DNA of 64,000 nucleotides from Desulfovibrio ferrophilus. Its GTDB lineage: Bacteria; Desulfobacterota; Desulfovibrionia; Desulfovibrionales; Desulfovibrionaceae. The notes under the pieces are model-generated. The model saw only the letters and a program-made list of their open reading frames with translations. It was not told the DNA's origin and searched no databases. Numbering within the stretch: position 1 is the stretch's first letter; each line of letters begins with the position of its first letter. Made by a program: the position numbers and the translations under genes. This document shows positions 2-22,113 of this stretch, piece by piece. Where the stretch lies: the NCBI RefSeq assembly GCF_003966735.1, contig NZ_AP017378.1, positions 2,500,905-2,564,904 on the forward strand, given 5' to 3'.

Positions 2-2584
2 GAATTCATTCATGTCGCACACCCCATCCTTGCAGGAGAAATTGGCAGCGTTCATATCGGCATGGACAAGGGCCTGATCAACAAGGCCATCCTCGGGGCC
101 ATCATCAATCATCAGATTCTGACCCTGGCCCTGTTCCTGACCTGCGCGCTGATCGCCTATTTCTTCATGGAAAACATCTCGCGCCCGTTAATCGCACTCA
201 CCGAGTACGCCCGCAAGATCAAGGGCCGCGACTTTGAAGCCACCCTGGACATCGACTCCAACGATGAACTGGGCGAACTCGCCGGCGCCTTCCACTCCAC
301 CTCTCAGGAACTCTCGACCCTGATTACCGGGCTGGAAGAATCGGTGAAAAATGCAACGGACGAGTTGCAGGACACCTTGGCCACTGTCTCGGCCATTGTG
401 AACAACATGGCCGATGGCCTGCTGGTGACCGATGCCGAAGGCAACCTCCTGCAATTCAACTCCGCTTTGCTGGATATGTTTGGTGCCACCTCCGGCAACT
501 TGATCGAAACCAACGTCCGCGACCTGCTGGGAGCGGAGATGCACGCCATGCTGACGTTGGCCGGACTGGACCACTGCAATATTTCCACGGAGGACGGCGA
601 CTCCGAATCTCCCCAACAACAGGCAACCATAGAAGTCAACGGACAACGGCTGGATGGGACATCCTTCCCTGCCGAAATGTCCATGGCCATGCTCCCGCTC
701 AAGGGTGATCTCAATATTGTTGGCATCATCCGCGATATCACCAACCGTAAGCAGGCCGAACTCAAACTCAAACTCGCCCACGCCGAGTTGGAAGAACGCG
801 TCGAACAACGCACGGCCGAACTCTCCGAATCCAACAAACAGCTGACGGCAGAAGCTGCCGAACGCAGTGCCGCCGAACTGGCTTTGCGTCAGGCCGAGGC
901 CAAATATCGGGGCATCTTCGAGAACGCCATCGAGGGCATCTTCCAGCTCGCTCCGGACGGCACCTATGTCGCCGCCAACCCCGCTCTGGCCCGCATTTAC
1001 GGCTACGCCAACCCCATGGAACTTCTGGGGGCGGCAGGCTGCGGCATGGCTGGCTTCCATGTGGACGAATCCCATGGCGAAGAGTTTTGGTCACAACTTA
1101 AGGAAAACAAGGAAGTCCGTGACTTCGAATCCCAAGCCAGACGCCAGGATGGTCGTATCGTATGGACTTCCCAAAACGCCCGGGCCGTCCATGACGAAAG
1201 GGGTAAGCTTCTCTTTTATGAAGGATCGGTGGAAGACATCACCAACCGCAAGGAAGCCGAATCAGCCTTACGGCACCAGGCCTTCCACGATCCTCTGACC
1301 GGACTGCCCAACCGCATCCTGTTCCTGGATCACCTGCGTCAGGCCATGGAGCGCACCAAGCGGACCAAGGACTTTGTCTACGCTGTGCTCTACATGGACC
1401 TCGACCGCTTCAAGATCATCAATGACAGCCTGGGCCACAACATCGGCGATGAACTCCTGAAGCACGTGGCGCGCAAGCTGGAAGAGGCCGTGCGCACCAT
1501 GGATACCGTCGCCCGCTTCGGAGGCGACGAATTCGCCGTGCTGCTCGAGGATATGCGGGCCCCGCGCGAGGCCATCAAGATCGCCAAGCGCATTTCCGAC
1601 GCAGTCAAGGAACCGGCGCATCTGGGTGGCTACGACGTGCACACATCGGCCAGCCTCGGCATCGTATTGGTCAAGAAGGACTATGACCGCCCCGACTCCA
1701 TCCTACGCGACGCCGATACGGCCATGTACAGAGCCAAGGAATCCGGGCGCTCACGCTTCAAGGTCTTCAGCCAACGCATGCACGACCAGAACGTGAGGCT
1801 GCTGGAACTGGAAACCGAACTACGAAAATCCCTGGAACGCGATGACTTCGTGACCCTGCTGCAGCCCATTGTGGACCTGGACAACAAGCGCCTGAACGGA
1901 TTCGAGGCCCTAGTCCGTTGGAACCACCCCAAGCTCGGCATGATCTCCCCAGCGGAGTTCATCCCTCTGGCCGAGGACACTGGTCTGATCCACCCCCTGG
2001 GTGAATGGGTACTGCGAAATGTCTGCAGCACCATCCGTGATTGGGAAAAACAATTCCCGCCAGGAACTCCGCTCAACATTTCCATCAACCTCTCGGCCAA
2101 GCAGTTCGTTCAGCCCACGCTCATCCCGCAGTTACGCGAGATCCTTGAACTGACCGGCATCACCCCCTCCAATCTGCGCCTGGAGGTTGCCGAAACCGTT
2201 CTCATGAATCATGCCTCCATCGCCATTGAGATGCTCGGGCAACTCAAGGACCTGGGCATCTCCCTGTCCATGGATGATTTCGGTACCGGCTATTCGTCTC
2301 TGTCCTATCTCCGCCAATTCCCCATCGATGCGCTGAAGATCGACCGCAGCTTCATCTCCCGCTTCGGGGAAGACGCTGAATCCCAGGTACTGGTCAGGTC
2401 CATCATCTCCCTTGCCAAGAACATCGGCGTCGCCGTGGTGGCCGAGGGAGTGGACACCGATGTTCAAAGCGCCATGCTCAAAGACTTGGGCTGCGAATAT
2501 GCCCAAGGCTACCTCTTTGCCCGCCCCATGCCCCGCGAGAAGGCAGAAGCTTTGCTCCGTGGCGACGAAGTCCTCGACATCTAG
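2..2584 (+). CDS. Membrane GGDEF-EAL protein with HAMP and two PAS domains (5' partial)
   Basis: Cyclic-di-GMP turnover protein. The frame is open to the left edge, so the true start and most of the periplasmic sensor lie outside the window. Numbering from the internal Met at 62, a membrane segment (about 17-36) is followed by HAMP (37-90), PAS (105-225), a coiled coil, a second PAS (280-400), GGDEF and EAL. The cyclase keeps the GGDEF signature and an upstream RxxD inhibitory site (RTMD). The phosphodiesterase keeps EAL (FEALVRW), the DDFGTGYSSL loop and KIDRSFI. Both catalytic domains therefore look intact, and which activity dominates cannot be read from sequence. No partner gene is visible on the left. 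Confidence 0.93.
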   Translation, partial: EFIHVAHPILAGEIGSVHIGMDKGLINKAILGAIINHQILTLALFLTCALIAYFFMENISRPLIALTEYARKIKGRDFEATLDIDSNDELGELAGAFHSTSQELSTLITGLEESVKNATDELQDTLATVSAIVNNMADGLLVTDAEGNLLQFNSALLDMFGATSGNLIETNVRDLLGAEMHAMLTLAGLDHCNISTEDGDSESPQQQATIEVNGQRLDGTSFPAEMSMAMLPLKGDLNIVGIIRDITNRKQAELKLKLAHAELEERVEQRTAELSESNKQLTAEAAERSAAELALRQAEAKYRGIFENAIEGIFQLAPDGTYVAANPALARIYGYANPMELLGAAGCGMAGFHVDESHGEEFWSQLKENKEVRDFESQARRQDGRIVWTSQNARAVHDERGKLLFYEGSVEDITNRKEAESALRHQAFHDPLTGLPNRILFLDHLRQAMERTKRTKDFVYAVLYMDLDRFKIINDSLGHNIGDELLKHVARKLEEAVRTMDTVARFGGDEFAVLLEDMRAPREAIKIAKRISDAVKEPAHLGGYDVHTSASLGIVLVKKDYDRPDSILRDADTAMYRAKESGRSRFKVFSQRMHDQNVRLLELETELRKSLERDDFVTLLQPIVDLDNKRLNGFEALVRWNHPKLGMISPAEFIPLAEDTGLIHPLGEWVLRNVCSTIRDWEKQFPPGTPLNISINLSAKQFVQPTLIPQLREILELTGITPSNLRLEVAETVLMNHASIAIEMLGQLKDLGISLSMDDFGTGYSSLSYLRQFPIDALKIDRSFISRFGEDAESQVLVRSIISLAKNIGVAVVAEGVDTDVQSAMLKDLGCEYAQGYLFARPMPREKAEALLRGDEVLDI

Positions 2585-2658
2585 CCCTCCAAGCATTGAA
2601 TTTCTCGATGCGATAACCTAGGGTCGTATCGACATTCCAAATGCAAGGAGAGAGCAAC

Positions 2659-2865
2659 ATGGCGATCATCATCTATGGGAAATCCGGTTGACCGCATACC
2701 ATCAGGGCCAGGTCGGCCCACCCGGATGCCACATATTTCGACGTTAGCATGGACCCCGCCAAACTGGACGAAATGCTCAAGCTGGCCGATGGGGCAAGAA
2801 AAGTTCCCGTGCTGGTGGAAGACGGCAAGGTCACCATCGGATTCGGTGGCACCTGAGGCTGCTAA
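2659..2865 (+). CDS. Glutaredoxin-like selenoprotein with two Sec (UGA) codons, UXX-star type
   Basis: Small thiol/selenol redox protein of 68 residues, visible only if two in-frame TGA codons (2689-2691, 2854-2856) are read as selenocysteine. It opens MAIIIYGKSG-U-PHT, a glutaredoxin beta strand with Sec at the CxxC position, has the cis-Pro strand KVPVLV and the GFGGT motif, and ends U-G-C-stop. AGGAG lies 8 bases before the ATG. Each TGA is followed at about 20 nt by a perfect 5-bp hairpin with an AGGU loop, as in bacterial SECIS elements. I recall a glutaredoxin-like family named for a C-terminal U-x-x-stop, and this fits it. Ordinary gene calling would see a 10-codon fragment. A convergent MFS gene shares its terminator. 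Confidence 0.88.
2689..2719 (+). promoter_or_regulatory. SECIS-like element for first UGA codon
   Basis: Downstream of the TGA at 2689, GGGCC (2705-2709) pairs perfectly with GGCCC (2715-2719) around the loop AGGTC. The loop GG lies 19 nt after the UGA. An exposed GGU(C) apical loop at this distance is the SelB-recognition feature of the E. coli fdhF SECIS. Confidence 0.75.
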
Positions 2866-2886
2866 ATCGCTCCGGCAGGTTGCCGG
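2854..2886 (+). promoter_or_regulatory. SECIS-like element for second UGA codon, located past the stop
   Basis: After the TGA at 2854 come GGC TGC TAA. Then CCGGC (2872-2876) pairs with GCCGG (2882-2886) around the loop AGGTT. The loop GG is 21 nt after the UGA, nearly the same geometry as the first element, but the hairpin is in the 3' untranslated region because Sec is the third-last residue. Confidence 0.72.
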
Positions 2887-2907
2887 CACACAGAACGTCT
2901 TTCATAA

Positions 2908-2946
2908 AAGAAGCCCGAGCTATCGAAGATGGCCCGGGCTTCTTGT
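2908..2946. terminator. Bidirectional intrinsic terminator
   Basis: AAGAAGCCCG (2908-2917) pairs with CGGGCTTCTT (2935-2944). It lies between the selenoprotein gene and the convergent MFS gene and can serve both. Confidence 0.7.
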
Positions 2947-2960
2947 TAGCATCGTCGATG

Positions 2961-4103
2961 CTACGAAGCGGCAGGAGTCCGAATCAGCTGCACACAGACC
3001 AAAGACACCAGAGCCAGTCCGGCACCAGCATAGAACACCATCGCCGGGTCCACGAGCCACAACAGGCCACCGGTAACCGGCACGACCACCGCCGCAATGT
3101 GGTTGATGGTGAATCCCACAGCCATGCTCGGGGCAATGTCTGCTGGCTTGGCAATCTTCTGAAAATAGGTTCGGATGGCAAAGGCGCAGTTGAACAGAAG
3201 ATGATCCAGCACATACATCAGCGCCACCACAGCCTTGCTCCCGGTCTGGGCATAGACCATGAAGACCAGCACCAGTCCGGCATACTCCACCGACAAGACT
3301 CGCCGTTCGCCCAGGCGGACCACTGCCCTGCCGATCCAGGGCCCGGCAAACCAGTTGATGGCGTTGTTCAACACGAACAACGCCGTGACTTCACGCACGG
3401 AAAAGCCAAATCGCTCCACCAGCAGAAACACCGAAAAAGCCACAAAAATCTGCCGTCTGGCCCCTGCCAAAAACGTCAGCAGGTAATACAACCAGTACTT
3501 CCAGCGCAGGACCATGGTCTTTCGCTGCGGCTCGGTCTGGCCACCACGAGGCTCGAACCACAGCATGCTCGCTCCTGCCACGGCCACGGCCACACCAACC
3601 AGCGCGAACAACTGGGTATACTCCAACACCGGAGCCAGAATAAAAATCGCACCACCCATGATGAGATTGCCCACGGACATCATTCCCCGCAAGCGTCCGA
3701 AGACAATGGGAGCCGTGGCTGAATCGAAATGTTGGAGGGTCAATGACTGATTGCAGGTCTCAAAATAATGGAACCCAAAAGACATGACCAGGGTGGTCAG
3801 GGCCAGCCCCCAGACCGAGGGGAACAATCCCGTGCCGGCAACTCCCAGTCCCATAATGAGAACCGATAGGGCAGCCAGCCGATGCTCGCGGATAATCAGC
3901 AGCAGATAGACCACCAGCAATGCCAGAAAGCCCGGGATCTCGCGCACGGACTGAACTACCCCCATCCCCAGCCCATCCAGCCCGGCGGCTTCCACCGCGA
4001 AATTGTTGATCAACGTCCGCCAGCCCTGCAACCCCATGGCTGAAGCGACAGTCAAAATGATTAAAAACAGATAGATGCGCTTCTTTTGAGCGTGGATATC
4101 CAT
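2961..4103 (-). CDS. MFS transporter
   Basis: A 380-residue polytopic inner-membrane protein with about 12 hydrophobic segments and the short basic start MDIHAQKKR typical of a major facilitator carrier. The loop FGRLRGMMSVGN between predicted helices 4 and 5 and a charged central loop (EPRGGQTEPQRK) divide it into two six-helix halves. Substrate is not identifiable. It stands alone on the minus strand, converges on the selenoprotein gene and shares its terminator. Nothing in the sequence links it to selenium or redox functions. Confidence 0.85.
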   Translation of the reverse strand: MDIHAQKKRIYLFLIILTVASAMGLQGWRTLINNFAVEAAGLDGLGMGVVQSVREIPGFLALLVVYLLLIIREHRLAALSVLIMGLGVAGTGLFPSVWGLALTTLVMSFGFHYFETCNQSLTLQHFDSATAPIVFGRLRGMMSVGNLIMGGAIFILAPVLEYTQLFALVGVAVAVAGASMLWFEPRGGQTEPQRKTMVLRWKYWLYYLLTFLAGARRQIFVAFSVFLLVERFGFSVREVTALFVLNNAINWFAGPWIGRAVVRLGERRVLSVEYAGLVLVFMVYAQTGSKAVVALMYVLDHLLFNCAFAIRTYFQKIAKPADIAPSMAVGFTINHIAAVVVPVTGGLLWLVDPAMVFYAGAGLALVSLVCVQLIRTPAAS

Positions 4104-21903: not shown

Positions 21904-21980
21904 TGGTAGCGGGGACAGGATTTGAACCTGCGGCCTTCGGGTTATGAGCCCGACGAGCTACCGTACTGCTCCACCCCGCA
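21904..21980 (-). tRNA. tRNA-fMet (CAT), copy 2 of the operon
   Basis: A 77-nt cloverleaf with encoded CCA. The anticodon loop is CTCATAA on three consecutive G-C pairs (GGG/CCC), and position 1-72 is a U-U mismatch. Both marks identify an initiator tRNA. The sequence is identical to the copy at 22037. Confidence 0.95.
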
Positions 21981-22036: not shown

Positions 22037-22113
22037 TGGTAGCGGGGACAGGATTTGAACCTGCGGCCTTCGGGTTATGAGCCCGACGAGCTACCGTACT
22101 GCTCCACCCCGCA
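22037..22113 (-). tRNA. tRNA-fMet (CAT), copy 1 of the operon
   Basis: A 77-nt cloverleaf identical to the copy at 21904, with encoded CCA, anticodon CAT, three G-C pairs in the anticodon stem and unpaired U1-U72. It is nearest to the shared promoter. Confidence 0.95.

Follow-up and report, generated by a model that had tools for sequence, protein, structure and literature searches.

The closest described system to the locus analysed here is UXX-star selenoprotein family 1 (model NF041114). Table 1 of a 2026 review (PMC13188914) lists it as Distant Grx-like protein 1, with a UxxT motif and two selenocysteines (Sec), and cites Zhang and Gladyshev 2008 for it; in the part of that paper available to us (PMC2398784), the family does not occur under that name. 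For other UXX-star families, the review cites Haft and Tolstoy 2025. UXX-star families 2 and 3 (NF041211 and NF047338) are related short glutaredoxin-like models. PMC13188914 also gives limits for the bacterial SECIS (bSECIS) element: a loop of 3-9 nt with a G in the first two loop positions, an upper stem of 4-16 bp, a distance of 16-37 nt from the UGA, and an energy of -7.5 kcal/mol or lower. It places bacterial SECIS elements within coding regions.

The window, a 64,000-nucleotide stretch of the Desulfovibrio ferrophilus chromosome, holds a frame on the plus strand that starts with ATG at 2659, has in-frame TGA codons at 2689-2691 and 2854-2856, and terminates with TAA at 2863-2865, being otherwise open. 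If both TGAs are taken as Sec, the gene (2659-2865, 68 codons and TAA) encodes 68 residues, MAIIIYGKSGU...GGTUGC-stop, with U11 as the first residue of a UPHT motif and U66 as the third residue from the C-terminus. A Shine-Dalgarno-like AGGAG, recognized from the sequence, lies at 2646-2650 (+), 8 nt upstream of the ATG, and the same-genus relative L013 likewise has AAGGAG ahead of its start. The initial annotation had placed a 68-residue selenoprotein gene and its hairpins at 2659-2886, and these coordinates hold. It had also predicted that a conventional gene finder would see a 10-codon peptide and leave the region empty. By the standard code the frame does end after 10 codons, but the mechanical ORF list of the region shows two other frames, 2675-3076 (+) and 2581-2889 (-). 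Both were set aside; the homologs and the codon pattern belong to the Sec frame. A strong hairpin at 2908-2944 (fold z -5.31), terminator-like but lacking a T run, separates the gene from the convergent ORF 2961-4103 (-), which by eye has the look of an MFS transporter. A scan of 2400-3000 for promoters and consensus terminators found none. Rfam returned eight matches at 2600-2960, all under their own gathering scores (best E 0.14), and over the whole window only three tRNAs at gathering scores. Two minus-strand tRNA genes, at 21907-21980 and 22040-22113, have an equal Rfam score of 65 bits each.

With Cys in place of Sec in the query, the protein matches NF041114, a model that the initial annotation had proposed searching, over positions 1-69 of 70 at 103.5 bits (cut-off 72), and the wider model NF041212 at 71.2 bits (cut-off 66). 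It resembles the family in score, in the UxxT motif and, if both TGAs are Sec, in having two of them (U11-P-H-T14 and U66). The U-x-x-stop that gives the family its name is present as U-G-C-TAA. This ending sets the gene apart from most relatives: among 68 family members in the order, U-G-C occurs only here and in the same-genus relative, while 44 others end in U-G-V or U-H-V. The models of UXX-star families 2 and 3 give 42.6 and 43.2 bits, under their cut-offs of 100 and 97. The protein was also claimed to be glutaredoxin-like with U11 in the CxxC position. The first part stands, as the Pfam Glutaredoxin model PF00462 scores 31.8 bits against a gathering score of 22.9; the motif, on the other hand, is UPHT, a UxxT and not a U-substituted CxxC. 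The protein shares a predicted glutaredoxin fold with glutaredoxin 3 and NrdH-redoxin and differs from them in having UPHT for CxxC and in ending at residue 68. It falls outside the dithiol glutaredoxins by both score and motif: the glutaredoxin 3 model TIGR02181 gives 25.1 bits (cut-off 90) and CxxC is lacking. TIGR02194 gives 12.2 bits (cut-off 85.75), and the NrdH and glutaredoxin 3 models are far under their cut-offs.

Prediction assigns the fold class. The AlphaFold model, computed with Cys for Sec and 66 aligned sequences, has a mean pLDDT of 85.5, a pTM of 0.69 and the order E-H-E-H-E-E. A sequence-profile search of solved structures gave glutaredoxins as best matches (best E 2.9e-8), and Foldseek against the PDB gave an E. 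coli glutaredoxin as the best match at E 1.2e-3, no match reaching 0.001 or below. In the top 20 rows of VIA-align, the thioredoxin-like protein BC3987 reaches the highest Z of 9.3, and glutaredoxins and NrdH have Z of 8.3-9.0; nearly level with the glutaredoxins are SspA/MglA, with values up to 8.7, and glutathione transferases, with values up to 8.3. The structural alignments end at residue 64 of the model, and E. coli glutaredoxin 3 is aligned over its own residues 1-67. Near that point glutaredoxins bind glutathione through a GG motif, which is followed by the last helix. The window protein stops about where the GG motif and last helix would come, and it lacks that helix. The host genome has no match to PF04262 or PF04107 (glutamate-cysteine ligase), and its best gshB score is 71.4 bits, under the cut-off of 299.

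As most fold matches reach residue 64 only and the domain would survive the loss of three residues, one could read UGA 11 alone as Sec and UGA 66 as the true stop of a 65-residue glutaredoxin-fold protein. Conservation, which is the basis for the assigned Sec positions, argues strongly against this. We compared the 68 over-cut-off matches of the order, the window gene counted. At position 66 all 68 have TGA, while three codons further on the variation is that of ordinary stops, with TGA in 29 matches, TAG in 22 and TAA in 16; L083 alone has a sense codon there. At position 11, 31 matches have TGA and the other 37 a Cys codon (TGC or TGT), so that homologs with U or C at both sites, for which the initial annotation had called, do exist. 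Site 2 is moreover the sole Sec site in those 37, and a hairpin follows it in 64 of the 68. Reading UGA 66 as a stop is very improbable. Ten outgroup loci (L114-L123) were left out of these counts, as the motif search found five of them and in three of these took the following UGA as site 2. Two members of the set are unusual. In L083 (genome G148, match 301-492) no stop follows U-I-V and the frame continues for 12 residues up to a TAG, which puts its site-2 hairpin in coding sequence. L034 (G042, match 1501-1695, minus strand) has an additional in-frame TGA, its third, in place of the conserved Gly of YGK, giving YUK; a sequencing error, decay or an odd variant would each account for it.

A decayed gene, with both TGAs acting as genuine stops in a pseudogene or a non-coding region, would agree with the 10-codon standard frame and with the ordinary folding energies of the hairpins described below. 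The comparison with L013 speaks against it: the two genes differ at 6 first, 2 second and 24 third codon positions, and over 66 codons 20 of the 30 changed codons are synonymous, the 10 others including TGA to TGC at site 1. So do the restriction of site 1 to TGA or a Cys codon in 68/68 matches, the TGA at site 2 in 68/68, and the Sec machinery of the host. These points largely refute decay, which we regard as more improbable still than a stop at UGA 66. In a site-1-masked tree of the 68 rows, five changes between U and C are needed, and the window gene and L013 group together (support 100/97) within a group of 24 U genes and one C gene, the latter being L013. This relative (genome G074, match 1501-1692) has TGC at site 1, yet GGCC-AGGUC-GGCC is still found at the place of hairpin 1. 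Since the hairpin is retained despite the Cys codon, L013 looks like a recent Sec-to-Cys change with a leftover SECIS.

Both TGAs are followed by a hairpin as the initial annotation had described, with a 5-bp stem and an AGGU loop 19-21 nt past the UGA. Hairpin 1 (GGGCC-AGGUC-GGCCC, 2705-2719, +) lies within the coding region, its loop starting at the 19th nt past the UGA. Hairpin 2 (CCGGC-AGGUU-GCCGG, 2872-2886, +) has its loop from the 21st nt, or alternatively 6 bp with a GGU loop, and is wholly 3' of the stop codon at 2863-2865, as was also claimed. Both fit the bSECIS consensus in loop, stem, G position, spacing and energy. Specifically, hairpin 1 has 5 bp, AGGUC, 18 nt and -16.4 kcal/mol over a 47-nt stretch, and hairpin 2 has 5-6 bp, AGGUU or GGU, 20-21 nt and -10.5 kcal/mol over a 47-nt stretch. 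The description of bacterial SECIS elements in PMC13188914 differs from hairpin 2 in location, and the same difference holds in 67 of the 68 matches if the stop is real. In the literature on bacterial SECIS as covered by titles and the starts of abstracts, and by PMC12013277, we identified no report of a 3'-located element; we do not claim priority. The two hairpins had further been called matching. Their loops are near-identical in the window gene, but relatives often have unlike loops at the two sites, and a matched pair is not a rule.

Against dinucleotide shuffles, the folding energies are not distinctive (z -1.52 for hairpin 1 and +0.71 for hairpin 2). As folding energy alone does not mark out the hairpins, we put the weight on homology and conservation. 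Hairpins were scored by a rule of our own, which takes a 3-6 nt loop beginning 14-26 nt past the codon, asks for a G in the first or second loop place followed by G or U, and values the stem by pair type. The two strands of the 64-kb window hold 2254 TGA trinucleotides, 45 of which have a hairpin scoring at least 15 by this rule. Of the consecutive in-frame TGA pairs in the window with a spacing of 15-150 codons and an interval free of TAA and TAG, none but the pair described here has two hairpins that reach 15. In the order, hairpin 2 scores at least 12 in 64/68 matches (under 12 in 4/68), compared with 4.9% of mononucleotide shuffles put through the same scoring. Because this hairpin is outside the coding sequence (except in L083), selection on the protein does not account for it. 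Its 59 distinct stems form pairs 1-5 in 59, 57, 58, 59 and 58 cases, using four to five kinds of standard pair at each of the five loop-proximal places; the stem is thus kept through varied base pairs. Over seven pairs the stems are 0.896 paired, against at most 0.676 in 2000 permutations of the 3' arms. This contrast is overstated, because each stem was anchored at the 4- or 5-nt loop that gave the most inner pairs, a choice that raises the pairing and that the permutations did not make anew, and because related stems were counted separately; the mononucleotide shuffles are the fairer control. Hairpin 1 scores at least 12 in 23 of the 31 Sec genes, against 1.4% of shuffles, and in 3 of the 37 Cys genes, against 7.1% of shuffles. 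Raw counts give a Fisher p of 2.8e-8 for its link with the site-1 codon, which is not formally established, as the tree has too few independent changes, with only two independent pairs on well supported branches. By raw counts the site-1 codon also goes with the stop: UGA is the stop in 5/31 U genes and 24/37 C genes (p 6.5e-5, again with too few independent changes). In the 29 genes concerned (e.g. L038, L057 and L061), an apparent stop UGA comes nine nt past the Sec-UGA, and both UGAs precede a single hairpin.

The host is equipped to decode Sec. A search of its genome (3.72 Mb, 99.98% complete), which the initial annotation had suggested, gave selB at 396.6, selA at 617.9 and selD at 340.5 bits, all above cut-offs, and a tRNA-Sec at 80.9 against a gathering score of 47, i.e. 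the set that marks a Sec-decoding organism. Neither of the two grounds for rejection named by the initial annotation applies, since homologs with U or C at both sites exist and selB and tRNA-Sec are present. The host selD (L040, G000:C1:455441-456355) has one in-frame TGA, and the selenophosphate synthetase is probably itself a selenoprotein. Counting the host, 68 of 297 genomes of the order have an NF041114 match over the cut-off. A selA match of E 1e-60 or better occurs in 67 of these 68 and in 180 of the 229 others (Fisher p 1.4e-5; the lists were matched by eye and 180/229 was obtained by subtraction from 247/297). The one gene-bearing genome without a listed selA, G287, is 81% complete. 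A peptide pattern derived from the Cys reading, which Sec forms are unable to match, found four loci, including L090, which seems to belong to the same-genus genome that carries L013.

Taken together, the window very probably carries a stand-alone functional gene of UXX-star family 1 that encodes a selenoprotein of 68 residues with a glutaredoxin fold. Both UGAs are most likely decoded as Sec, a prediction that sequence comparison supports well. A point against is that NF041114, curated as a selenoprotein family model, is biased toward such matches. The gene is real and easily overlooked. The claim that two Sec in so small a bacterial protein is rare is not supported, as the family is already recorded with two Sec. 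Over-cut-off matches occur in 100 of the 395 genomes of a phylum sample and number 104 in all; two in-frame TGAs are present in 76 of these, one in 24 and none in 4, as counted by eye within the matched stretch, where some matches end before site 2 and TGAs were not assigned to sites. Judged by these sequences, two TGAs is the common state in the sample. The review listing (PMC13188914) and this count together indicate that two Sec is usual in the family.

We infer how the gene is decoded in the cell, together with the chemistry, partner and substrate of its product. SelB with Sec-tRNA-Sec would act on hairpin 1 to decode UGA 11 and on hairpin 2, in the 3' untranslated region, to decode UGA 66, and UAA would terminate translation after U-G-C. 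PMC4513850 puts UGA recoding in vivo at 30-40%. Simple arithmetic from this rate, which is not data on this gene, suggests that two UGAs in series would yield about a tenth to a sixth of full-length product, plus 10- and 65-residue products.

Placed where the first helix begins, the selenol of U11 would attack a peroxide, a disulfide or a selenenylsulfide; the intermediate would then be resolved as a diselenide or selenenylsulfide by U66 near the C-terminus, joined in this genus by C68. U66 is proposed as the resolving partner because T14 occupies the place of the second Cys of dithiol glutaredoxins. Such a selenol oxidoreductase, with U66 partnering U11, is a plausible but tentative function. 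The absence of a second thiol from UxxT could also be taken to mean that, with gene and decoding as described above, no redox relay takes place, and that U11 and the U-x-x tail bind a soft metal or metalloid or carry selenium. The retention of U66 in 68/68 matches while Cys replaces U11 in 37, and the metallochaperone ArsD among the lower-ranked fold matches, are in line with such a role. The best sequence and fold matches, by contrast, are glutaredoxins, NrdH and a thioredoxin-like protein, and the neighbour comparison gave no recurring partner gene; metal binding or selenium carriage seems somewhat unlikely to us. This comparison covered 21 loci of relatives of about 7.5-10.2 kb, with L090 included and the window locus not among them, and none showed a recurring functional partner or a neighbour indicating a substrate. 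The commonest neighbour cluster occurs in 7/21 and is apparently one syntenic block of close relatives. The neighbours of the window gene itself were taken from the ORF list by eye.

Within the selenol oxidoreductase proposal, the tail may do the job of glutathione, because the domain stops near the glutathione-binding GG motif and no glutamate-cysteine ligase was found in the host genome. The U-x-x tail would then be a tethered stand-in, a selenol tripeptide at the glutathione site that resolves the U11 intermediate. As the tail is made only if the second UGA is read as Sec, a selenium-supply switch would follow. We consider this idea, switch included, speculative and on balance unlikely. If true, a protein of 68 residues would contain an entire catalytic cycle, and selenium supply would switch one mRNA between a 65- and a 68-residue protein.

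The gene is a well supported new member, with a U-G-C end, of a known double-selenocysteine family, and its interest centres on the terminal Sec-UGA with a 3' hairpin and on the function of the protein. Because the second SECIS is outside the coding sequence, base changes in the 59 distinct stems should report on SelB recognition free of protein constraint. The 29 of 68 genes in which a Sec-UGA and a UGA stop lie nine nt apart, ahead of the same hairpin, offer a natural test of distance deciding between Sec and stop.
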